DNA of 64,000 nt from Aotearoamyces nothofagi. Its lineage: Eukaryota > Ascomycota > Leotiomycetes > Leotiales > Tympanidaceae. This document shows, in pieces, positions 3,666-59,848 of this stretch (position 1 is the first letter of the stretch; every line of letters starts with the position of its first letter). The stretch covers positions 407,542 to 471,541 of the forward strand of contig JADDTR010000022.1 in the NCBI GenBank assembly GCA_015345905.1, given 5' to 3'. The notes below the pieces were generated by a model. It had not been told where the DNA came from. It saw nothing but the letters and a program-made list of their open reading frames with translations, and did not search any database. Made by a program: the position numbers and the translations under genes.

Positions 3666-4043
3666 ATAGCAATATCAAAATAGGAAAAAGGAAATTCCAT
3701 CAATTATTCAAAGTGAATAAGAACATCCTCAAATGATATCCTCAAACATTTTGTAGCGTCGCGATATCGTTTAAGCGAGCTTTGGAACCCACGCCTTTAA
3801 GCATGTCAAGCCAAAACATACTGCTAACAATCCAACTAAATCATCGCCGATAGCCCACTGAAGCTAATTGCTGAAGTAATACCTCCTCGGAGATACATTT
3901 AGACACTCATATTGGCCTCACGTGTCGATAAACTATCCTCAGGGTGTCACAGCGCGTCCGTGTCGTCACTTGAGCTTCGCCCTCCCTCCCTGGTCACTAC
4001 CAAGCTTCGATAGAAGCCAGTACACAGACGAAGAGGAGACAAG
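3666..4043. other. Intergenic, EXO84 3' end to PP2A start
   Basis: This 378-bp stretch holds the EXO84 3' untranslated region and the PP2A promoter. No further gene, repeat or RNA signature was seen. Confidence 0.4.
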
Positions 4044-5387
<1,344 letters not shown>

Positions 5388-5765
5388 TTTATAATCTCAT
5401 GACATGAGTAACCAGAACGGCAGCCTTGCTTACAAGACGTCATGTGAGGGATGAATTTGTATCCAAAACTGGTGCCTTTCTTTGGAGACTTTGCATGTTG
5501 CCTCCGGCCTATTGAAGGTTTATAGGCGCACGGAATGCATCAAGAGTTAATGTTCAGCACGTCCCAATGCTTCTAGAAATGCATTAGAATCATTTTGTGC
5601 AGCACGAAAGGTGTGGCTTATGCAACTGTGATGCTGATATGTATGTGCATTAATATATAACAATATGTCGTCTAGCAAGTCTATTTGCAGTGCCCTAGAA
5701 CTCCCAACAAGGTCGCTAATATCTAACAAGTATGCATGCATGCATCCACCCTTTTCCCAGGATCC
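5388..5765. other. Convergent 3' intergenic region
   Basis: This interval separates the 3' ends of the PP2A gene and the DUF3112 gene, so it should contain two facing 3' untranslated regions. It is AT-rich and shows no further gene. Confidence 0.4.
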
Positions 5766-10150: not shown

Positions 10151-12502
10151 CTACAATGCCTCCACCGTCACATCTCGAGCAATCTCCTTGAACTTAGACG
10201 GCCCCGCCACCTTTGGCCTTCCCTTTCTATCCACCCTCTCATCTCTAGGATCAAACCCACCATTCCCCCAGGTCGCCCACTCGGGAGTTGCCTGGCCCAT
10301 GTAGTCCTCCGGCCTAAAAGGTTCACCGCTCTCCAGGCAGGCAAAGAACTTCTCGTAGTCGATCCTCGTGTGCCACTTTCCCTCCTTCTTGAACCTCTCA
10401 CTCGCAATCAGGATACAGCAACTATGCGCATGCTCAGCCGCAATACCGTACTTGAGACCTCTGCGCTCCAGCGCCGCGTTAATGGCGATTACGAAGGCAC
10501 AGATTTCTTCGTAGAAGGGGACGTTCTCCATGGTCAGCCCGGCACCGGCACTGGACGATGTTCCGCAATAGGTAACGCCTTTGATTTCAACGAAGCAGGG
10601 GAGGCCTTTCTCAATGAGATCAGCATAACCCTCGGCTTCGTCATCGATGTTGAAGCCTTTAACAAGCGTGAGGCGGAACACAGTGCGCTGTTCGAAGCGC
10701 TTTTCGCGCAAGATCTCGAGGCACCTCTGGAAGCGCTCCCAGAAATCGCGGTGGAGTGGCCTGTCGATCTTGCGAAGTGACTCGCGGTTAGAAGCATCGA
10801 TGCTGACATAAAGCTGGGTCACAGGCTGCAGAGCAGCGAGTTGATCGGGGTGCTGTGCATTGCAAACGAGGAATGATGATATGTGCTCCTTGTGGAGCAT
10901 AGCTGTAAACTCGTTGATGTGTGGGTAGAAAATAGGCTCGCCAACTAAACTGAGAGCGCAGTGACGGATACGCATTGCTTCAGCAAAACGTTCAGCGCGT
11001 ACGCCGGGAACGCCACGCATCATTTTGATCTTCTTGTAATGCCCTGCTTTGACACCGTTGAAGATCAGGTCAGGCGGATCAACGACCCAACGCCAGGTTG
11101 TACCAACAGGATTGGTGCCGTGGCGCCAGCAGAATACGCACTTGTTGGAGCAGGACAGCGAGGGTGTTGTCTCCATGCATTGATGGGAAGCAATGCCGTA
11201 AAACGAATATTTATAGCAGGATCCACGACCACGTAATGCAGATTTAGTCCATCGACAAATTTTCACTCCAGAATGGGAGCCCACGATTGTGTAGCCTTGT
11301 TTAGTTAAAGCTGTATAAGTAGGAGACGTCTTTGGCACCATTTCTTTGATAACGGGTGCGGGTGACCGAGCTTTCTTGCTGTATGTCGTAAAGTCTATAG
11401 CGAGAGGCCCTGTAGCGTCTGTCGTTTCGGTGTCTGCTTGCGTCGTCCGCATAATGCGGCCAAGGTCCTCCAAATCATCCATATTGGACTTTTTTTTCGG
11501 TTGTGGTCTTCTCTGTACTCCAGTCTCATCAGATAGTACCTCTCCGTCGTCCTCGTCCACATCTTCAACGTCGCTCTCCACCGCATCACCACTTCCAACC
11601 ACGCCTTCTCCAAGATTTCCATTTTGTGCCAAAGTTTCTAAAACATCCTTCACACCTTCTCTCCATTCCTGAAGGCGGTCGGTATAATCAGTCTTAGTAT
11701 CGCCCATACCCAATGGAAACGCTCTTTTCCGTCCGGTAAGCTTTGCCATCCACTTGTCCACTTCCCTTGCTTGTGAACAAAAGCCTTCAGCCTCTGTCGG
11801 CCAACCTTCTCGGTCTCCAAATCCAAATACAGAGTATCCTAGTAGTGATGATAGCGGGGCAGTGTCAACACGGAAGTCATTGTGTGTCTCCTGTAAATGT
11901 TCGATAAATATATCCATGACCGTATCAATGTTGTAAGAAGGAAGCAAAAGGAGATAGAAATATCTAATGTTTGCATCGCCCTCGCTGGGCTTGGGCGGGT
12001 GGAGGAAGTAGTCATCGTAATCGACGTATGATAGGTCATGGATTTGAGTTTCCAGAAACGAAAAGCTTGCAGAGTCTGGAATCTTCCTTATGGTCTCTGA
12101 AAGCTGAGTAGTAAAAGTTTGTGCGATTCTCTCAGTGCCACCACTAAGGGATGTAAAGAACACTAGGACTTGAAACTTTATATCTCCTTGTATAGCTGGT
12201 ATCTGCGGTTCTTTTAATCCTTTCTTAGAGTTCAGTTTACCAACAACTCGCTTTGGTCCAGTCGGCGTCTTCGCCAGGATGACTTGTTCAACCTTTTCAG
12301 CGGATCCAGTATGCGAGAGGCTCTGCTTTTCTGCCGACAATGCTGGCGAGGAAGGTGGTGGTGTATAGACAATCTTATCCCGACCTACTCGAAGATGCAA
12401 TATCGTCCTTACTGACAGCAATACCGCCAAAGTACAGAGAATGATCGGAATTCGATAGAGATGCCATACTGCAAGAATGTCTGTTGACGAATCAGTAAGC
12501 AC
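10151..12502 (-). CDS. TYW1: tRNA 4-demethylwyosine synthase Tyw1
   Basis: Tyw1 is a radical-SAM enzyme that condenses N1-methylguanosine-37 of tRNA-Phe with pyruvate to form the tricyclic base of wybutosine, using a fused flavodoxin as electron donor. The single exon encodes 783 aa. A hydrophobic segment at residues 12-30 (WHLYRIPIILCTLAVLL) suggests an ER anchor. The flavodoxin-like domain spans about 110-290 (FFTSLSGGTERIAQTF is the FMN loop, FGFGDREGWP follows). An acidic linker follows. The radical-SAM domain carries the cluster motif CSNKCVFC at about 449-456 and the conserved SLVGEPIFYP, SIDASN, FVEIKGVTYCG and EHAHSC segments. The length and order match fungal Tyw1. It begins at the first ATG. 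Confidence 0.95.
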   Translation of the reverse strand: MLTDSSTDILAVWHLYRIPIILCTLAVLLSVRTILHLRVGRDKIVYTPPPSSPALSAEKQSLSHTGSAEKVEQVILAKTPTGPKRVVGKLNSKKGLKEPQIPAIQGDIKFQVLVFFTSLSGGTERIAQTFTTQLSETIRKIPDSASFSFLETQIHDLSYVDYDDYFLHPPKPSEGDANIRYFYLLLLPSYNIDTVMDIFIEHLQETHNDFRVDTAPLSSLLGYSVFGFGDREGWPTEAEGFCSQAREVDKWMAKLTGRKRAFPLGMGDTKTDYTDRLQEWREGVKDVLETLAQNGNLGEGVVGSGDAVESDVEDVDEDDGEVLSDETGVQRRPQPKKKSNMDDLEDLGRIMRTTQADTETTDATGPLAIDFTTYSKKARSPAPVIKEMVPKTSPTYTALTKQGYTIVGSHSGVKICRWTKSALRGRGSCYKYSFYGIASHQCMETTPSLSCSNKCVFCWRHGTNPVGTTWRWVVDPPDLIFNGVKAGHYKKIKMMRGVPGVRAERFAEAMRIRHCALSLVGEPIFYPHINEFTAMLHKEHISSFLVCNAQHPDQLAALQPVTQLYVSIDASNRESLRKIDRPLHRDFWERFQRCLEILREKRFEQRTVFRLTLVKGFNIDDEAEGYADLIEKGLPCFVEIKGVTYCGTSSSAGAGLTMENVPFYEEICAFVIAINAALERRGLKYGIAAEHAHSCCILIASERFKKEGKWHTRIDYEKFFACLESGEPFRPEDYMGQATPEWATWGNGGFDPRDERVDRKGRPKVAGPSKFKEIARDVTVEAL

Positions 12503-13688
12503 AGCAGATTGGATGAATGGTAAAAATGAGAGTCAGGGTTGGCTTACAGTCGACACCCCAGAATGTAAGAGCGTCAACTCCGGACATATTGCAATTGCAG
12601 TTGCAGTGCTATATAGTACGGGTCGAGACGTGGATCTCTCTCTACACGAACACTGTCGTAAAAAGTCCCGGCGGGGCGCGGGGTGTTGGCAGAATAATCC
12701 CTAAAGCGCTAAATACGGCGGCTAAACCTCATGGAGTTAGGTAGCCTCCACCGCCAGACGCGCAGTTGACCTTACATGTTGCTCGCATATCACATCACCT
12801 TAAGTAACCAGCTTGTCTACTAATCAGCCTCCAAAAAGGCAGAGTTCCATAATCCAATGTAGCAAACCAAAGTACGTTACCTTTTTACTGAACTTTGTCT
12901 TTAAAACATAGAGTTTTCCCGTGTAGATAGATGTGTTTTCTTGAGTTGGTCAGAGCAGGAAAATGACACCAAACCACCCCAGACCATTGGAAGCATTATC
13001 CACAGTTTACTCTAGTCTACAGCATCGTGATATTGCTCTCTGTGTTCTTTACAGTGATAGTATAATATAGCAAGGCACTGCGTCATCAGCTTTGTAAAGA
13101 GTAAGTAATGAATAGACTGATTTGCTAGATTAAACCCTTTTTATAATTCATTTGAGGTATCGTATAAAAAAGTCTTCACTCGTTTGAATTGGATAACAAA
13201 GATGCAGAGTGCAGCTCTGAGCTGACTGTAATTCAATATATGTTTGTGACTTGTCACTTCTGGTTGTCGAATATATATATAATATTAATTAAGATTATAT
13301 GTGATTTAGTTTATCTCAAAGACCGAATGAGTCAATGTCACATTAATATTATACCTCAGCATTTTCGAGAAAGCAGTTATGGACAATCTGGCAGATACAG
13401 CAATAAGGCGAAATGTCAACAGCTATGTCTATTCTTTTTCTTATAATGTATTGTTCTCACTAGGCATACCGAATCAGTCACGTAAGGCTTTATCTCCATG
13501 GATCATCGCAGATACGCTTAATTTTTGTAATACAAATGCAATGCTTTCATTTTCGGTCGTACAAGCGCAATAAAACACAGCAAGTTGCTTAAGAGCAACG
13601 CTCGCTGGCACATCTAGCCAGCCATCTTCGAACACAATATGCAAGAACTATGCCATGATAGCTACTGATACAATAGTGTACACTGACT
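12503..13688. other. Intergenic, TYW1 upstream region
   Basis: About 1.2 kb lies between the TYW1 start and the 3' end of the GYF-domain gene. The left 250 bp is GC-rich and likely the TYW1 promoter. The rest is AT-rich with only short frames that lack splice signals or protein-like composition. I see no further gene. Confidence 0.4.
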
Positions 13689-22638: not shown

Positions 22639-24204
22639 CTAACCAAATGCACGTTCTTCCACGCCCAGTCTTCTATTCTGAGCGTTGCCATCTTCCCCGC
22701 CGTAAACGCCACCATCCAGGATCACCTCCTCGTTGTCGTCATAATCATCCTGAACCCTCCTCCAAGTACTTGTCCTTCTCTCGGCCCCCTCAGCATCCTT
22801 TTGCTTCCCCTTGCCGGCGTGGTACACTGGCTTAATAAGTCCGCCTAGAAGAGGATTTCGACTGAACGTCCCTCTCCCTTTGCCATCATTCCCACTCGTT
22901 TCTGACAGAGGCTCCTCTACGGGCTCGGCCTCTTCAGCATCATCTTGGTGCTGTGGTCTCTCTACAGTTCCCATCCTCCTAACAACCTTTCCGCCAACTA
23001 GATCAATACTAACAACAGCCCTACGCTTCTCATACTCGGGCCTTGCATTCCATTCCTGTTCCCGTAGCACCTTTTGTTGCTTTTTCAACTGCCTCGCACG
23101 CTCTGCAGGACTACTCCAAATAGCTGTTCCTGCATCCGGAGTCTCAAAGTCTGCTGCCTCATCTCTCACAGTAGTCCTCTTTGCATTCTGCGCCTGGAAA
23201 CCAAGTAACCGATCTCTGTGCTCCTTTGCCTTTATCTCAGCAGCGGTCATCCCCTGCTCGCTAGGCGTAGGGCCTCCAGCTCGAGGGTTGGAAAACGGCG
23301 CCGGCACTCGGGAGATGTCTGCTCTACGATGCGATGAGGCGTCAAGAGCCATCCTTTCCCTGCCTCGTTCATCCTTCAGTTCGCGTATCATGCCATCGAT
23401 CTCAGATGATGTGAGTAGCGGCGTGCCGCAAAATGTACATGGCCCGAGTCCTTCTTTAACGCAAATGACCTTCCCACAGTTGAGACAATTTGGTGCAGCT
23501 GCTAGTAACGGGTGCCTTGTTGCTATACAATTACATCTGCGTTTGTCATTATCTTGTAGTGTAGGATTGGTTGAGATTTCGAGAGAGCGAATTGCAGACT
23601 CGAGCTCAGTAAGCGTACTTGATGCGCCCTGCATAGAGAGCCCCCCTGTGATATTGACCTTGGTTTTGGGGGCAGGTGAGGCAGTTCGGGAACTTGGTAG
23701 ACTTTTAGATGTGGCCTTTGGTTTGAGATCAGAGATTAGGTGGCCTGCGGCAGAGGGAGGTGGCCGTGGTGCCCTAGGTGTAGGAGCTTGGATAGTATTT
23801 GACTGAGTATTCAGAGCAAAATTGTTGACGAGGTTTTTTGGTTTTGATATGTAGTCATCATTCGACTTCGTGTAAGCTGTTCCTTGCGCTGCGTATGCCG
23901 TATCTTGCACTTGGCGAGGTGCGGGCGTGTGGAGCGGATGCTTCTTCTTTTTCGGTGCGCGAGTCGATTTGGGCACTTCGGATGAGGACGGCTGAGAGGG
24001 CTGTGATAGGATTGAAGATGATCTAGGCTCCTGTCGTCGAGAGTTAAAGGAGGATATAAACTCGATTGACTGCGGTGACTCGCCGAGCAGGTCGTTGAAG
24101 TGATCCGCCGCATCTTGCTTGGATAAAGTCGCAGCGTAGTCGAGAAACTGTTGTAGGTCTTCCTCGGGCAGTGGGAGCAGACGAGACAGCTGGAAAAGAG
24201 ACAT
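22639..24204 (-). CDS. TRIP4/ASC-1-type zinc-finger protein (Rqt4-like)
   Basis: The single exon encodes 521 aa. A C2HC5-type zinc finger lies at about residues 221-263 (RCNCIATRHPLL, NCLNCGKVICVKEGLGPCTFC). It is the signature of activating signal cointegrator 1 (TRIP4). In yeast the related Rqt4 is part of the ribosome-quality-control trigger complex, which splits stalled ribosomes together with the Slh1/ASCC3 helicase. The N-terminal 45 residues (LPLPEEDLQQFLDYAATLSK, DAADHFNDLLGES) match the family's N-terminal helical region. The region after the finger is charged (AEIKAKEHRDRLLGFQAQNA, then AERARQLKKQQKVLREQEWN). The ASCH domain of animal TRIP4 is not seen, as in fungal members. It is divergent from the PLP-enzyme gene. 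Confidence 0.88.
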   Translation of the reverse strand: MSLFQLSRLLPLPEEDLQQFLDYAATLSKQDAADHFNDLLGESPQSIEFISSFNSRRQEPRSSSILSQPSQPSSSEVPKSTRAPKKKKHPLHTPAPRQVQDTAYAAQGTAYTKSNDDYISKPKNLVNNFALNTQSNTIQAPTPRAPRPPPSAAGHLISDLKPKATSKSLPSSRTASPAPKTKVNITGGLSMQGASSTLTELESAIRSLEISTNPTLQDNDKRRCNCIATRHPLLAAAPNCLNCGKVICVKEGLGPCTFCGTPLLTSSEIDGMIRELKDERGRERMALDASSHRRADISRVPAPFSNPRAGGPTPSEQGMTAAEIKAKEHRDRLLGFQAQNAKRTTVRDEAADFETPDAGTAIWSSPAERARQLKKQQKVLREQEWNARPEYEKRRAVVSIDLVGGKVVRRMGTVERPQHQDDAEEAEPVEEPLSETSGNDGKGRGTFSRNPLLGGLIKPVYHAGKGKQKDAEGAERRTSTWRRVQDDYDDNEEVILDGGVYGGEDGNAQNRRLGVEERAFG

Positions 24205-31232: not shown

Positions 31233-32175
31233 ATGGGCCCACCACAAGAACCACAAAGAAGACAGCCACTAGGTCTGATCATGAGCAATATCGCCGCGAA
31301 TATGTCTCTAAGTCCGACTATTCAAGTTAACCCTTCTAAACCAGTGAGTCCTTCAACAATGCGCCGACTTAATAACTAAGACATTCCAGGAAAAGAAGAC
31401 TAGTGCCAAACGCACACACGAGGATATTACCTCTGATGCCAATCCCAATGATATCGACGATGATGACCCACGCCTTGAATATATCACAGAGAACTGTGAT
31501 CAAGTTCGCCGGAAAATCAATACCTTCATCAACAACGGTGGCATGAAGGTCACCGAGTTCCAAAAAAGCATTGGTACCAATAGCCGCAGCTACTCTGCCT
31601 TCATGAAGCAGAATGGTCCCTACAACGGGTCTTGTAGCAATGTTTTCTCGGCGGCTTTCGTATTTTTTAAGAAACGCGAACTCGCCGGCGTTGCAATGCC
31701 AAGAAAGAAGGCAAGGAAAGCCAGAGAGGACGAGACTCAGGGCCTCTCTTCTGTCCATCTAGATGGCGAAGAAACCGACGCTGTCCCAATCTTCGATACA
31801 TGTGATGATGTCCGTCGCAAGATTGCGGCCTATCTTCGCAAAGATAGTGTAACGCAGGCCGGGTTCTTGCGGGAGGCATCGAAAAGCTTTGCTAGTCCAC
31901 GTAAACTCTCAGCCGCGCAACTGCAAGCATTCCAGGGCAAGGCAGGCCCTAATGCTGGCAATACAAGTGGCGTGTATTATGGTGCTTATGTGCTATTTGA
32001 GAAAATGCGCATCAAGGCTGGCAAGGCGAAGAGTAAGAAGAGAGAAGAAATGGAAAAGCTGTGGGCTCGCCATGGAGGGATGGATAAGGATACACTACAC
32101 AACTCGTATTTTTGCTCTGGAGACTCGAGACCATACGAGGACCAGTACGGGATGGTGCATTTTACTAGGAAGTAG
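31233..32175 (+). CDS. DUF7726-type fungal protein with two repeat units
   Basis: Two exons (31233-31343, 31390-32175) give 298 aa. Two related units are visible. One is at about residues 74-130 (CDQVRRKINTFINNGGMKVT, EFQKSIGTNSRSYSAFMKQ, VFSAAFVFFKKRE). The other is at about 175-245 (CDDVRRKIAAYLRKDSVTQA, FLREASKSFASPRKL, VYYGAYVLFEKMR). This pattern matches what I recall as DUF7726, a domain of filamentous fungi resembling a small helical DNA-binding fold; the family name is from memory. Between the units lies a basic linker (MPRKKARKAREDE) that may be a nuclear localisation signal. The C-terminus has basic KAKSKKREEMEK and ends YGMVHFTRK. The start is the first in-frame ATG after a stop. 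It is convergent with the aspartate aminotransferase gene. Confidence 0.82.
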
Positions 32176-34676: not shown

Positions 34677-35865
34677 TCATATCAACAGATCCCACACTAC
34701 TAGAAAAAGACTCAGGCTGCAAGATGCATAGAAGACGTACTTCGCAGTACTCTTGCGCTCAGATGCTCTTTTTAATTCCTTATTGCCACCACCGACATTC
34801 TCGGTCGTATAAAAGGAATCAGCCACAAGTTGATCAATGTGTGCTGATTGTGTCGCCAGATTGTTTACCAACTGTGTTTGAAGCTCTGAGATCTCCACTA
34901 AAGACTTCTCGGCAGTTCTGTGTGGTAATTAGTACTTGTATTTCTCTTTCATAGAAAAGACACGCAACCTACTTTACTTGATCCAAAGTAGCCTCGTAGT
35001 GTTTCATCATATCTTGATTCTCCTTCTCAAACAACTGCAATTGCTCTGGTGTTAAATCATCTACAATATTCTGCGCATGCTGCTCCTGATCCAATGCTGC
35101 CGTACTGCCTTTGAAGTTCGGGGGTGGCAGAGGAGTATCAGCGAATCCTGCGAGGTCCGGCAGGGGTTGTCCACGGGATTTGTAAAGCACACTTTTGTTC
35201 TTTTCTATCTCACGCAGGATTCTCGTCTCCATCATTGATGCCTGGAAGCTACCGCATTCCTGTAGCTTCTGCCGAAGATACCACAGAACACTCTCCCTGT
35301 GCATGCTAATTGCGTTTGCTTTAGCCTCAGCCAGACCCTGTTCGTATGACTTTGTATTCCCTTCACCTCCTGCCGCCCAGGCACTGAGGGCACCAAGCCC
35401 TGTCCTGGAATATTTTTTGCGACTAAGTGATGTCTCTGTATTTTGTCGTAGCTGCTCAGCATCTGCAAGATTGCGTATGCCAGCGTTGAGCTCTCGCAGA
35501 AGTTGCTTTGTCTCCGCATCTATCTCGTCTCTCTGCCGATCTGTTAAATACCGCCATTGCTTCTCTTCTAGTCTAACGTTTTTTTGGGATTCTGTACGGG
35601 TAGGTTGTAGACGCCTCGGTGGCTGCGAGGTCGAAAGATAGGACTGCCGGATTCCTCGAAGGTAGGCATTTAGGGAGGCGATATGCGAATTCTGAGCATG
35701 TTGTCAGTAGAAACTCTAGGCTCCTAGTGAGCTCTGCTGGCATACTATCCTATACGCCTCTTTCAAGAACTCATCGATATTTTGTAGTGACAGTGAGGGA
35801 TTGGCGGTAGGGCGTGCATCATGTCGTTGTAGGACCTCATTAAGTATGGGAGTAAGATCTGTCAT
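34677..35865 (-). CDS. UFE1: ER t-SNARE Ufe1/syntaxin-18
   Basis: Ufe1 is the Qa-SNARE of the endoplasmic reticulum that receives retrograde Golgi-derived vesicles and works with Sec20, Use1 and the Dsl1 complex. Three exons (35746-35865, 34973-35691, 34677-34917) give 359 aa. The N-terminus (MTDLTPILNEVL, then IDEFLKEAYRI|NSHIASLNAYLR) is the syntaxin-18 N-terminal domain. The SNARE helix runs at about residues 280-330 (EISELQTQLVNNLATQSAHI, then DQLVADSFYTTENVGGGNKE). A C-terminal membrane anchor follows (YVFYASCSLSLFLVVWDLL). The intron between DQV and TAEKS uses the donor GTAGGT and branch TACTAAT; it resolves an apparent stop. The gene is divergent from the MFS transporter. Confidence 0.93.
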
Positions 35866-42239: not shown

Positions 42240-43014
42240 TCAATATAGAACTTTGCGCTTCCTCCCCGCACGTTTAGCCGCAGGCCTCTCCATGAACAAG
42301 TATTTTACCCGTGGTCTCCTCGCCCATTTTGCGGGTGTGGGAATCGTGACCGTGTCATCTCCGAAAAATCCGTATCTTTCATAGAGGCGCTTGCCCTCGC
42401 TCGATGTTGCAGCCAAATATGCTTCTACACCTAACCTGTCGGCGATTTTTAGACCCCATTCTATGAGCATCGATCCTGCACCCCGCCCTCGATGTGAAGG
42501 TGCTGTGTAGAGATTCCCAAGGACTGTCCTGTCAATGAAACTGTTCTGTGCTATGCTGGAGAATATAGGAACACATACTGCAGCATCTCTTTCCCTTTGT
42601 TCTCTGCAGCCAGCGGTCCGTGAAAGCGTTGACAATGTGTGTGGCGTATTCGTTGTCATCTGGTTTTCGGTGAAAACGGATGGTACACCGTCTCATTTTA
42701 TCTCTTTGGCTCATAGCCTTCCTGTAAATATTCCATTCTGCTGCACTGATAATACGACCTATTATTGTCAGATAGTCCCTGATGGATGTAGCTATCTTCT
42801 CACCAGTCTCCGAATCCGTGACCTTCAAAATCTTCTCAGTCTTGTCCAAACGTAGCTGTTCTAGCATCCGCTCTGCAGCTTTCTTTCTGACCCTCTTTGT
42901 ATTGGCCCCGGGGAAGTCAATTTTATGGATGGGCTCTTTTCCTAGTGCTGCGAAGCGAATAGCTATAATCTCTTCCATGTCAGCATCTTGTGCTTCAGAG
43001 AGAATGAGAGTCAT
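42240..43014 (-). CDS. GNAT-family N-acetyltransferase
   Basis: Three exons (42804-43014, 42579-42740, 42240-42523) join in phase to 218 aa; splicing is needed because no single frame covers the domain. The N-terminus (ILSEAQDADMEEIIAIRFAA) is the usual GNAT start. The acetyl-CoA pyrophosphate loop is APSHRGRGAGSMLIEWG (about residues 132-148, R/Q-x-x-G-x-G/A type), followed by LGVEAYLAATSSEGKRLYER and YGFF, the typical last strand and helix. It resembles the fungal acetyltransferases with a VNAFTDRW-like helix. The substrate is unknown. Both introns have workable donors (GTGAGA, GTATGT); the acceptors, chosen from closely spaced AGs by frame, are the least certain part. The C-terminal tail is very basic (PAAKRAGRKRK). 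Confidence 0.8.
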
Positions 43015-43218
43015 TGGAGCGGCGTAGAGACAAGGACTTGTTTCGATGATAGTTTTTCATGAAAATAGCTTGCAAACGTATACAATTTATAGAATCATGC
43101 AATCTGCCTTCGCGATGAAAGAAAGGTGTTTACTGCTCTCGTGGAACTATACAGACTGTAACGGTCCAAGAGAAGTGGCTGGATGCTACCGGCTTGACCG
43201 ATTCACTGGATCAACGAC

Positions 43219-43282: not shown

Positions 43283-43842
43283 ATCTAAAGTCATTTAGAT
43301 CTACATAGTTGTTTATGTTCATCTTATACTGTTTGGACTCTGTCAAAATAAACGTTGGCTATAAATGATTTTATGCAAACGATGGAGACAAAAAGAACTA
43401 CAAACAAAATAGATATAACCAGAAAAATCCCTATATGTAAATTTCTGAGTATTTGTTTGAGTTATGATATATCGCTGGTAGTGGTAGCAAGAATGTCAAA
43501 GCAAACTTCTAGGAGCTCATAGAGTATAAATTGAATGACGGATATCAGGCTGATGGACTCAGAATGGTATTTAAGGCGTAAGAGCTGAAGGTGCTGCTGC
43601 TGCGATGTAACCGTCGGCTTTACCTGGTAAACCTCGCCCTTCACTGATTGGCCCGGCGTCCAGCATTTATAGGCCTCTGAGGGCCTTTAGCCTCGCGCCC
43701 AATACAGGCTCGCCTAATTGATATCCGCTTAATTTCCTGGGCAAAAAATGGAAATAGAGTTGGAACTGCAGCGAAACACAGCGCAACACAACATTAAGCA
43801 AAAAGAAGATTAAGCGGATGGTAAAGTTCTAAGATCATGCTC

Positions 43843-43857
43843 AAAAAAAGCAAAAAA
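43843..43857 (-). terminator. Pol III terminator of the tRNA-Arg locus
   Basis: On the minus strand two T runs (T6 and T7) begin 14 nt after the tRNA 3' end. Such T runs end RNA polymerase III transcription, which supports the tRNA orientation and 3' end. Confidence 0.75.
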
Positions 43858-43870
43858 TTACGCACGATTG

Positions 43871-43998
43871 CGACCCTCAAGGGACTCGAACTAGGCCGAA
43901 TTAGTACAAGGGACGGCGAATTATTTTCCGGTCTGTAATAACGTACCCCTCAACCTCGGTCTTAGGAGGACCACGCGCTACCATTGCGCCAAAGGGCC
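43871..43998 (-). tRNA. tRNA-Arg (anticodon CCU), T-arm split by intron-like insert
   Basis: The two parts 43947-43998 (52 nt) and 43871-43890 (20 nt) form a complete 72-nt tRNA when joined. The acceptor stem is GGCCCTT with GAGGGTC (G1-C72, two G-U pairs). The D arm is GCGC-AATGGTA-GCGC. The anticodon arm is TGGTC-CTCCTAA-GACCG, giving anticodon CCU. The variable loop is AGGTT. The T arm is GAGGG-TTCGAGT-CCCTT with five pairs. A-box and B-box cores are present. The anticodon loop itself is not split, so this is not an ordinary 37/38 tRNA intron. Without removal of the insert the T stem cannot form. It may be a functional gene, a recently interrupted copy or a pseudogene. Confidence 0.8.
43891..43946 (-). 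other. 56-nt spliceosomal-type intron inside the tRNA T stem
   Basis: Read on the minus strand, the insert starts GTACGT, has TACTAAT with its branch A about 11 nt before the end, and ends CCTAG. These are the signals and the size of the protein-gene introns in this window. Its exact removal rebuilds the T stem of the tRNA. A 7-nt repeat GTCCCTT occurs both in the insert and in the tRNA just after it. A spliceosomal intron in a Pol III product would be exceptional, so activity is unproven. Confidence 0.65.
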
Positions 43999-47462: not shown

Positions 47463-48479
47463 TCACACTACCGGTTGCTCAACGACTATCAATCGGGATG
47501 ATGTCTCATCATCTGGAGCCGCAATTGCCGCCTCTAAGTAACATATGACAGGCACTCCAATGTCTTTCAAATATAGCAATGAACGCTCGAGGTTGAGTCC
47601 CACTTGATCAATGCCGTGACTATCATCTGACAGCGTAAATCTCCCACCCATCTCCAAGAATGCCTATACAACATTAGCCCGATGCTGAGAACGACAGCTC
47701 CAATACATACCTCACAGATACTTCGTCCTGGATACGGCTCCTTCAGTCCCTTCCTCAGCGCGCTAGAATTAACCTCCAACAAACCGCCTTGCTCAGTGAT
47801 GAGTTTGAGATTCCTCGTGACCCGGTCCCACACTCCATCTAGAGTCTTCAGATCCAGGTTCGGGTCATCGCTGAGGAGCCGGATGAGGTCAAAATGGCCG
47901 ACAACCGGCGGTTTGAGGGCCTTCAACAGCTCATACTGCGAATCAAAGTAATCCTCAAACAACCTCTCGTCAGTCCCACCAGCGACATCCCGCGCCGCCT
48001 GGTAGGTAGCCTTGTCGTAATCGATTGGGATTTCATGGACATGATGCACCGAGCCTACGAAGAACTGCACGTCCGGGTTGCCCAGGAGCTCCCTGATGAG
48101 CCCCGCATACGCAGGCCGGATCCACTCGCCCTCGAAGCCAACCAAGATCATAATCTGCTCCTTGTATTTCTCGCGCAGCCGCACCGCCTCCTTCACATAG
48201 AGCTCATGTCGTGGTCCCAACGACGCTATCGTGTCACCGGCCTCGACCTATCCGCTGCGCTGTCAGCAGGGCGGGCGCTGGGGAGCGGGCGGCGCAGCGT
48301 CACGTACAGCTACGTACCTCTTCCGGATAAAGATCCCTATCCGAGATCCGCGGCATGTGCTCTGTCAGCGCGAAGAGCCGCAGGTTGAGCGAGATGGCGC
48401 GCTGGATCACCTCTTCGAGCTGGTTTTTCGCGTGCCCTGGGCAGAACTGCCCAGAGTGGCTGTGCATTGAGAACAACAT
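47463..48479 (-). CDS. HIS2: Histidinol-phosphatase (PHP family)
   Basis: The enzyme removes phosphate from L-histidinol phosphate, the penultimate step of histidine synthesis. Three exons (48318-48479, 47711-48247, 47463-47663) give 299 aa. Metal ligands of the PHP fold are visible: MHSHSGQFCPGHA at the N-terminus, LRLFALTEHMPR, LVGFEGEWIRP, FFVGSVHHVHEIPIDYD, VVGHFDLIRLLSDD, LLEVNSSALRKG and FTLSDDSHGIDQVG. The intron borders fall between EE|VEAGD and CE|AFLEMGG and are in phase 0. The start is the first ATG, four codons before the first metal His. The length fits fungal His2. It lies at the edge of the long gene-poor region. Confidence 0.93.
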
Positions 48480-56325: not shown

Positions 56326-57576
56326 CCCCCATTCACCAGGCTCTGCCATCACCAACCCAGCATGGCCCTCTCCTCCGTCCGCTGTACATCTTTTCCCATT
56401 CTCAAGCACCCTGTCCATCCTTACCCTCACATCCTTCATCCCTTGCGTTATCCCTGCAAATACCGTCTGTGCTCAGAAATGTCCTCCCACATCAGGATGC
56501 AGGCATCTCTGTTAAAACTAGCTAGCCTTGACCCTCCATCTTTCTTCTCGACCCACAACAACAATTTTTACGAGCATGACACTTTTCTATTTCTTCGCAC
56601 AGCGACATGTGGAATCCTGATTGCAATCTTCTGACGTGCTGCGAACAGGTTCATGCGCTCTGGGTGGTTGCATATTTTAAATCTCGGATCGGCACCTGGG
56701 ACTGAACAGCGCCTCGACATCAACAGCTTCAAACCGCCAGAGCTCTTTGTTCTTATCGTAAGTACCTACCCATGGAGCCAAGGCAGATGTGCGGCGAGCG
56801 CCTCCATCAGACTTGCCGTGTGGTGATAAAGCGTAACTCAGCTGATCAAGATTTCCTTAGGCCCATCTTATTATTATCATAGTCTGGAGTGCTTCACCTT
56901 CCCGAGACTCGACTCAGCTAGTAGACGGCAGCTTAACTCTTCTAGTTTGCACCGGATGCCATAGGCGCCAACCCACGGAAATAGGCGTTATTTCAAAGCC
57001 TCTGGCATAACGGCATATCATATATCCTAAGCACAATCGCGGATTTATTTAAACTCTCGCCTTCAGGGACCATCTTTATAGGATATTCCGTCTCTCTATC
57101 CATTGCCATACCAACATAACTTAATACATACACCATATTAAATCGATATCTCATTTGAATTTACGATATTACCACCTCCTGCGAAGAGAATATACGACTC
57201 TGTATGCAGCCAGCGTTATCGTCGAACACGCTGTGCTGTGCCAGCCTTGGACCTATAATTACTTGGAGAGCTTTCCTTAACCGTAGCTTCTATCTATCGA
57301 CTTCCTAATAACATCTATCAACCGTCAAAGTGGCACTCTCAACTTACAGGTCGTTCGAGGTTAGTTGGTCCGCTGAGTGTGCGAGCAAATAGCTGCACCT
57401 GCTCTCCGACACTGATCGATCAGCTTACAAAATTTACACAGCCGGAATACCACAGAAACAGGCCAGTAATACTAGACGAGGCATTCGAATCACCAGAAAC
57501 CGCTGCTTTGCGGTACGAGGAAGGCTACGAGGGAGGCCTTCTGGCTCGGCCGGATTCTCCTTCGGATTTCCTTCCC

Positions 57577-59848
57577 ATGTCTGCCTACGGGAAGCCCCCA
57601 TTATCACAACATCATGGTCAGTGCTTCAAAATGATTTCGACTGCACAGAGATAGTCCGAATTCATCTAAATAGTCGACCCTTCTTACTGATGTTTCATTG
57701 ATAGGACTTGATAATAGTCGGTCATTCTCGGAGCCCTCATTTACCTATTCTACTGCGCCACTATTTGTGTCGCAACCGCCTGTCACGCCAGCAATAGTAC
57801 CAGCATTTCAACAATCCTCCCAAATGACGCATATGCCGTATGGTGCTCAAGCTCGTACGCCCTACGATGACCAGTCTGGTCCTTACCTCAATGTCGGAAC
57901 ACCAACACCACAAGTTCAATCATTCCAGCCTACGCAAGGAGTAGAGGGAACGAAGCTCTGTATCTACATCTCGTCTCTGTATGAACTCATGACAACAAGT
58001 TTACCGACATGCTCTGTGATCTTTGGGTCTCGGAAATGTGCTGCCTCGTTAGCAAAGCTTAACCAGCAGGGCGGAGCATGCCAGTACGCAATCACAACTG
58101 ATGTGCCACCATTTGCAGTTACTGCATGGTCAAGTTCCAATGTACCAATATCCTTTCTCATGGAGAGTGGTGACGGTGAAATAATCTGCAAAGTTGATGT
58201 TGGCCGCTTTGGTTACGTCAGTGCAGAGTCTCGGGGTTCAAACAACGCAGCATACGAGATTTCAAGAAAAAGGAAAGTCTCATCAGATTCTGTAGAGCTG
58301 TTAAGAAGCCCGATAAAGCGCGTTTCCGGGAATCAGATCCGGTCGAAAGACGAGTTTTCTACATATGGTTATACGCCCGTCGACGGATCGAACTTTTCTC
58401 CCTATCTTCAATCGACGTCCTCATATAGCTTGATGCCACAATATGGCCGAGCGCAAGGGAACTACCAGAATCAGAATTCGGCTAGAAATATGTTTCCTTA
58501 TGCAGCTTCTTCGGCGTTATCCCCGCCAACAATCAAAGCACAGTCTTCTCCAGGTCCAACATGGAGCCCTTATTCAACGGTCAACTCGCACACCGACCGA
58601 AGCCCAGGGATTTCAGCAACTACAAGCCGACCTACATTATCTGCACTACCTTCACCTCTCACAGCCAATCCTCCTCTGATTCGAACGTCGACATTACAGC
58701 AGACTCCCAGCCCAGCCACGACGCCGGCAGGTGCCCAGCAATCTGGCCAGGCTTTTAACCCGTACGCATTATATATGCAGAAAGCAGTGTTAAAGATTCA
58801 GGGTGATCTCGATAGCATGGCCGATCATTGGTCAAATGAAGAATGGGTAGCAAAGAGGCGGATTGTACTCTTTAAACGGTCCCAAGCAAACAGCACAATC
58901 ACCACAACTTTCAAACCTGTTTCTCTCGACGAACGTCCCCACAACAGTGTTTGTATCAGTTGCATCTACTGGGAGGAGAAGAACGAATGCTTTGTTACCA
59001 GTGTAGATACAATTTACTTGTTGGAACAGCTTGTGGCAGCAAGATTCACGGTCGAAGAGAAGAATAGAATCAGAAGAAATCTGGAAGGCTTCCGACCGCT
59101 TACTGTGTCCAAGGCAAAGCCGGATAGCGAAGAGTTTTTCAAGGTGATCATGGCATTTCCTAATCCCAAACCTCGCAATATTGAGAAGGATGTCAAAGTC
59201 TTTCCTTGGAAAATCCTGAGTCATGCTTTGAAGAAGATCATTGGGAAATACGTGAGTACATCGTTTCTCGATTTGTTTCTCAACTACAGGACATTACTGA
59301 CAGCCATCTAGTCTGCGAGCCCATCCTCGACGCTTCCACCTGCACTGCTTACGCCAGTGAGTTCTACAGGCTATGCCACCGAGACTTCTTCAGTGGGATT
59401 TTCTCACACAAGCGGCGAGCTCAACAGTGTGATGTCTCCCCGCTCGATATCACGATCAATCTCCGGCACATCCACATCTGCTGCCTATAGCGCAGGCGGA
59501 TCTAGGGCGCTATCACCTCCTATCAAACATGATGTGGGCCAACAGGGTGGGCCTCCTGATCTCAGCATTTCAGTGCCCGGCTACGGCGCTCCCATGGGAG
59601 ATCATGCTCCTCCGTGGCAAGGGACACAGCATCACATGCCGCAGTCGCAGTATCAAAATATGGGTGGCCAGAGCACTCGACGCTCGTGGGATATCTCGGC
59701 ATATCTTGATACTAGTTCTACCAGTGCCATATCCGGCAACGGTTCGCAATCGTTGGGGTATAGCCGGGGAATAGCGGATACTTCCGGTGCAGAAGGCGAA
59801 CAGAAGATGCGCAGCACACAGTCCAGTCACCAGATACAGCCCTCATGA
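57577..59848 (+). CDS. medA: Developmental regulator Medusa (MedA)
   Basis: MedA-type proteins (Aspergillus MedA, Neurospora ACON-3, Fusarium Ren1) control conidiophore development and in some species adhesion and virulence. Three exons (57577-57616, 57705-59251, 59312-59848) give at least 707 aa. An Ig/TIG-like domain is seen in GTKLCIYISSLYELMTT and VDVGRFGYV. The conserved MedA core follows (WSNEEWVAKRRIVLFKRSQA, NSVCISCIYWEEKNECFVTS, FTVEEKNRIRRNLEGFRPLT, FPNPKPRNIEKDVKVFPWKI, LKKIIGKY|SASPSS). The C-terminus is Ser/Gly/Gln-rich. Before the ATG the frame stays open to 57259 and reads like protein from about 57430 (HRNRPVILDEAFESPETAAL). An upstream exon at 57204-57282 joined to 57350 would be in phase and would give about 809 aa, so the true start is open. 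Confidence 0.9.

Follow-up and report, generated by a model that had tools for sequence, protein, structure and literature searches.

On the minus strand of the 64-kb stretch of DNA analysed here (referred to as the window), positions 43998 to 43871 carry a putative nuclear gene for tRNA-Arg(CCU), the reader of AGG codons, that is interrupted in its T arm, probably by a spliceosomal intron. Once the insert is excised the product is 72 nt long; the features of the gene are collected in Table 1. A preliminary description of this DNA had located the insert in the T arm. This is correct; more exactly, the insert immediately follows the T-stem 5' strand. Two placements of the junctions rebuild the identical tRNA, and just one of them has GT-AG ends.

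Table 1. Parts, promoter boxes, terminators and splice signals of the interrupted tRNA-Arg(CCU) gene, in window coordinates
Feature	Position	Strand	Remarks
tRNA-Arg(CCU) exon 1	43947-43998	minus	52 nt, tRNA positions 1-53: acceptor 5' strand, D arm, anticodon arm, variable loop, T-stem 5' strand
GT-AG insert, candidate spliceosomal intron	43891-43946	minus	56 nt, between tRNA positions 53 and 54
tRNA-Arg(CCU) exon 2	43871-43890	minus	20 nt, tRNA positions 54-73: T loop, T-stem 3' strand, acceptor 3' strand, discriminator G
Anticodon CCT	43964-43966	minus	normal 7-nt anticodon loop, without intron at 37/38
A box TGGCGCAATGG	43981-43991	minus	11/11 to consensus
B box AGTTCGAGTCC	43882-43892	minus	across the 3' splice site; 10/11 unspliced, 11/11 in spliced order
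T6 run	43852-43857	minus	candidate RNA polymerase III terminator, 13 nt past tRNA end
T7 run	43843-43849	minus	candidate back-up terminator, 21 nt past tRNA end
5' splice site GTACGT	43941-43946	minus	hexamer identical to that of PP2A intron 5088-5139
Branch site TACTAAT	43900-43906	minus	branch A at 43901, 10 nt before last G; protein-gene intron 34918-34972 also has TACTAATT
3' splice site CTAG	43891-43894	minus	end of insert

The tRNA becomes recognizable to the tRNA finder ARAGORN only when the insert is taken out. The program reported tRNA-Arg(cct) for the spliced sequence, with made-up flanks and with real flanks alike; it found no tRNA in the unspliced gene, with or without its intron option, and none in a scan of the whole window. 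In the spliced tRNA all 21 stem pairs are standard, four of them being G-U, and the 12 invariant positions checked all match; A15 and U48 are also present. The earlier statement that an intact cloverleaf requires excision of the 56-nt insert is thus borne out. At −26.8 kcal/mol, the cloverleaf is the minimum-energy fold of the spliced RNA; in that of the unspliced RNA the D and anticodon arms still form, but the T arm is missing and its region folds otherwise. The Rfam tRNA model spans 43871-43998 with the insert kept, at 33.2 bits for a cut-off of 29, assigning the extra bases to the T loop; no other Rfam match in the 64 kb reaches gathering level.

The insert resembles the introns of the protein-coding genes in the window. 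As reference, 23 candidate introns of such genes were examined and 17 kept, selected by eye; the six dropped (42524-42578, 48255-48317, 48255-48307, 12481-12547, 23411-23479 and 57305-57347) had weak-looking frame or homology support, or overlapped one another. Two of these, 42524-42578 and 23411-23479, open a frame once spliced, so that keeping them would have been possible, and two of the kept introns, 4330-4394 and 5311-5364, have weak frame evidence and were retained for their fit to the PP2A protein, judged for 5311-5364 by reading its flanks. The reference introns measure 47-85 nt (median 54), all 17 start with GTRNGY, and 16 of the 17 have a CTRAY branch site. A signal-score model built from them, with the tRNA insert left out, gives the insert a score of 18.84, within their leave-one-out range of 13.15-23.85, and with its 56 nt the insert also lies inside their range of lengths. 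Its branch A stands 10 nt from the end, where the reference introns have distances of 10-12 nt in 12 of 17 cases, 10-16 nt in 16 of 17 and 31 nt in one. The insert hence has GT-AG ends with the 5' consensus of its host and a CTRAY-type branch site at the usual distance, and its excision restores a product that is sound in sequence and predicted structure. The preliminary description had already named the start GTACGT, the end CTAG and the likeness to the protein-gene introns in signals and size, all of which we can confirm. Its branch site TACTAAT stands as well; as to the distance from the end, put there at about 11 nt, the motif ends 9 nt ahead of the insert end and the branch A precedes the last G by 10 nt.

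Controls within the window and in shuffled sequence make a chance origin of the combined tRNA and intron pattern very unlikely. Of 127,090 other 56-mers of the window, both strands included, 441 have GT-AG ends and none scores as high as the insert. When all 21,791 GT..AG stretches of 45-90 nt are considered, 52 reach the insert's score, a number that includes true introns and the insert itself. In an excision scan, all stretches of 45-90 nt that began with GTRNGY, carried YTRAY near their end and closed with AG were removed one at a time, and ARAGORN was run across each resulting junction. A single tRNA spanning the junction, the tRNA-Arg(CCU), came out of 216 such removals in the window, versus none out of 4,874 removals in 20 dinucleotide-shuffled windows.

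For transcription by RNA polymerase III (Pol III), the consensus sequences are TRGYNNARNNG for the A box and GGTTCRANNCC for the B box. The insert divides the B box; its final two bases, AG, precede TTCGAGTCC, and in this way 10 of the 11 B-box positions are kept in the DNA. An exact GGTTCRANNCC does not occur in the window, where shuffles have a mean of 0.84. The gap between A and B boxes is 88 bp with the insert and 32 bp without it. The longer gap falls inside the range of 32-93 bp given for S. cerevisiae (PMC12409998; here and below, papers are cited from the portions of their text available to us). When the insert was shifted by script, the B box scored 11/11 at eight tested sites further 5' and 10 at the actual site; towards 3' the score was 8, 7, 8, 9, 10, 9, 9 and 10, and then 11 at five tested sites beyond. 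A site chosen to spare the B box is hence rejected as an explanation, the actual site being compatible with the promoter without being unique in this. The T6 and T7 runs do lie 3' of the tRNA, as previously described. Taken together, a cloverleaf, the invariant residues, both promoter boxes (the B box 10/11 in DNA) and a T-run terminator give the locus the sequence features of a functional nuclear tRNA gene. Just downstream of the T runs there is also a 16-nt inverted repeat (43723-43738 and 43804-43819), whose arms are 88% complementary and 65 nt apart.

The removal of introns from nuclear tRNAs is generally ascribed to the SEN endonuclease together with a ligase. From the features assembled above, we consider it probable that a nuclear tRNA-Arg(CCU) gene, in all likelihood from a filamentous fungus, carries here an ordinary spliceosomal GT-AG intron at 53/54, and that it would be transcribed by Pol III and processed by the spliceosome. 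Transcription would start from the A box together with a B box that is nearly rebuilt at the 3' splice junction, and the nuclear spliceosome would then excise the insert as a lariat. The T arm would form only after excision, so that modification of U54 and U55, end trimming and aminoacylation could follow. Such an order, first splicing and then modification, is in agreement with Pus4 of Cyanidioschyzon merolae being inactive while a T-arm intron is still present in the precursor (PMC9602550). Reverse splicing or a local insertion probably introduced the intron, and we propose that its last G, by taking the place of G53 in the B box, may have made it tolerable.

Several points weigh against this reading. 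The case is made from sequence features, from which we infer transcription, splicing and use of the tRNA. The Rfam score of the unspliced gene is modest relative to its cut-off, and the cloverleaf energy does not stand out from that of shuffled sequences (z = −0.74; 45 of 200 fold equally well); since this energy is ordinary for the composition, the case for a tRNA rests on the tRNA pattern, that is, on pairs and invariants. Any tested site at least one base further 5' would have kept the B box at 11/11. The four G-U pairs among 21 may be ordinary or may be the first trace of C-to-T decay, and a review mostly takes D- or T-arm insertions in eukaryotic tRNA genes as a sign that the gene is a pseudogene (PMC4090602). 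The modest Rfam score and the ordinary energy would suit a mere chance resemblance, with neither a tRNA nor an intron at the locus, but this is hardly credible in view of the excision scan, the 21 standard pairs and the lack of any other 56-mer as intron-like as the insert. The G-U pairs and the review point instead to a recently dead copy, in which a spliceosomal-type intron or other DNA landed in one of several CCU genes, now out of use, while another gene supplies the tRNA; the review, according to which such insertions usually affect one gene out of many synonymous ones, speaks of supposed pseudogenes (PMC4090602). We regard a dead copy as unlikely, and it is the strongest rival. It sits poorly with the intact cloverleaf, checked invariants, A box, near-complete B box and T runs, and the intron signals are likewise intact. 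In random trials, pairs and invariants survived three substitutions in 5.9% and five in 0.95% of cases, a test that C-to-T changes yielding G-U pairs escape. The preliminary description had left three options side by side, namely a working tRNA dependent on the spliceosome, an introner-like insertion and a pseudogene. We favour a spliceosomal intron whose excision leaves an intact tRNA, with the pseudogene as its main rival. For two 16-nt pieces of the insert, a search of the window that allowed up to three mismatches gave no second match, and no direct repeats of at least 10 nt flank it, shorter target-site duplications lying outside this limit. From this it follows that a mobile introner finds no support here, as far as a single window can tell.

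Alternatively, the insert could be a non-canonical tRNA intron cut by SEN, as in C. merolae, with its GT-AG ends and branch signals being coincidental. The likeness in position is close, as C. merolae and nucleomorph tRNAs have T-arm introns and that of C. merolae tRNA-Ile(UAU) also lies at 53/54 (PMC9602550; PMC4090602). The earlier view that nuclear tRNA introns sit at 37/38 is hence too strict, since C. merolae introns occur elsewhere, one of them at 53/54 (PMC9602550). In C. merolae, however, a bulge-helix-bulge (BHB) motif seems critical for the endonuclease (PMC4090602), whereas the present insert combines full spliceosomal signals with the absence of a strict BHB: at its junctions the strict 3-4-3 motif has no placement, and a loose enumeration gives four helix placements. 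These loose placements would speak for SEN, but among 18,258 random 56-nt inserts at least one loose BHB occurred in 53.9% and a strict one in 6.3%, and we reject the loose BHB as evidence because it is no commoner here than in random inserts. The missing motif is in turn not decisive against SEN, because nucleomorph tRNA introns are excised even though many of them form no defined BHB (PMC3978253; PMC4090602). An intron cut by SEN would leave unexplained why the spliceosomal signals go far beyond chance, and the canonical SEN position is not matched either, the insert lying at 53/54 next to an anticodon loop of 7 nt. Compared with canonical 37/38 introns, the insert likewise resides in a nuclear tRNA gene, but it differs in its position, in the uninterrupted anticodon loop and in its splice and branch signals. 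We thus hold a SEN route to be quite improbable and weaker than a dead copy. In yet another scenario the intron would belong to a minus-strand RNA polymerase II (Pol II) transcript, for example within the extended 5' leader of a gene located at about 42.2-43.1 kb, with the tRNA matured from this transcript or merely contained in it. The nearest downstream open frame of at least 150 codons on the same strand (42535-43056) has one end about 0.8 kb away from the tRNA, but it may not be a gene, as it lacks a Pfam match. The A and B boxes and the T6 and T7 runs point to Pol III, and the splice restores the tRNA exactly. We regard a Pol II transcript as very improbable, and it would still amount to spliceosomal splicing of a tRNA.

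Some further observations concern the insert and its search in other collections. At 43907-43914 (minus strand) the insert holds GTCCCTTG, which is identical to 8 nt of exon 2 running from the end of the T loop through the T-stem 3' strand to the base that follows. A tandem duplication of the T arm as origin of the insert was tried and rejected, the shared 8-mer not being significant: the duplication score was matched by 208 of 5,000 dinucleotide shuffles and 750 of 12,742 window 56-mers in a strict scheme, and by 395 of 5,000 and 1,631 of 12,742, respectively, in a loose one. In the lowest-energy fold of the precursor, exon AGGUUGAG pairs with UUCGGCCU at the 3' end of the insert, and the 5' splice site pairs with the start of the branch motif. 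This fold is no better than those of shuffles (z = 0.24; 115 of 200 fold equally well) and thus carries no weight as a special precursor structure. Patterns of the tRNA had no match in prokaryote and virus contig collections, and for the protein of a neighbouring TPR gene no relative was confirmed in the prokaryote collection; neither result says anything about fungi.

The gene content indicates that the window is eukaryotic, probably from a filamentous ascomycete. Exon 4505-5092 matches PP2A catalytic subunits, and the spliced reading stays in frame over short introns. The PP2A catalytic subunit gene extends over about 4040-5390 on the plus strand with six short introns as modelled, of which intron 5088-5139 starts with GTACGT like the tRNA insert; its protein we take to be Pezizomycotina-like. 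Other genes of the window encode an aspartate aminotransferase of the cytosolic type and Exo84. At 10154-12532 (minus strand) there is a flavodoxin/radical-SAM/wyosine-forming protein, presumably TYW1, a tRNA-modification enzyme. DUF7082 and DUF7726 proteins, members of families of unknown function, are encoded on the plus strand at 57674-59308 and 31348-32172, respectively; we assume both families to be fungal.

Spliceosomal introns in genes of structured RNAs have precedents. The U6 RNA of fission yeast (Schizosaccharomyces pombe), a Pol III RNA, loses an mRNA-type intron by splicing, and this intron is thought to stem from reverse splicing near catalytic nucleotides (PMC10484740); the use of U6 as a precedent in the preliminary description was therefore appropriate. 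Fungal U6 thus parallels the present locus as a small, structured Pol III RNA with a spliceosomal intron (PMC10484740; PMC5832005), but U6 is itself part of the spliceosome, whereas the host here is a tRNA whose internal promoter is split by the intron. Short spliceosomal introns are also found in ascomycete rDNA and fungal U3 snoRNA genes (PMC8527467; PMC5832005), where the hosts are rRNA, made by RNA polymerase I, and U3 rather than a tRNA. Yeast even excises a 57-bp spliceosomal intron of a lichen from rRNA made by RNA polymerase I (PMC8527467), and a U2 case is cited in the reference list of PMC2586383. A literature search, partial in coverage and hence no proof of absence, turned up no published case of a nuclear tRNA with a spliceosomal intron. 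The new element here is that spliceosomal introns of non-coding RNA genes, Pol III-made U6 included, would now extend to a tRNA.

If this is true, an essential step in making a mature tRNA can fall to the spliceosome, and the spliced Pol III RNAs known reach beyond U6. It would also mean that tRNA finders can overlook such genes; ARAGORN missed this one with and without its intron option, and Rfam found it. The placement of the intron, whose last base replaces one of the B-box bases, would make the gain of introns in Pol III genes testable as well. More tentatively, and with doubt prevailing, the gene might be the sole tRNA-Arg(CCU) of the organism, with a maturation wholly dependent on the spliceosome. 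In that case decoding of AGG would be coupled to spliceosome activity, and Pol III, the spliceosome and tRNA end processing would act on one transcript. Nuclear tRNA genes would then be open to the gain of spliceosomal introns where a 3' splice site replaces promoter bases.
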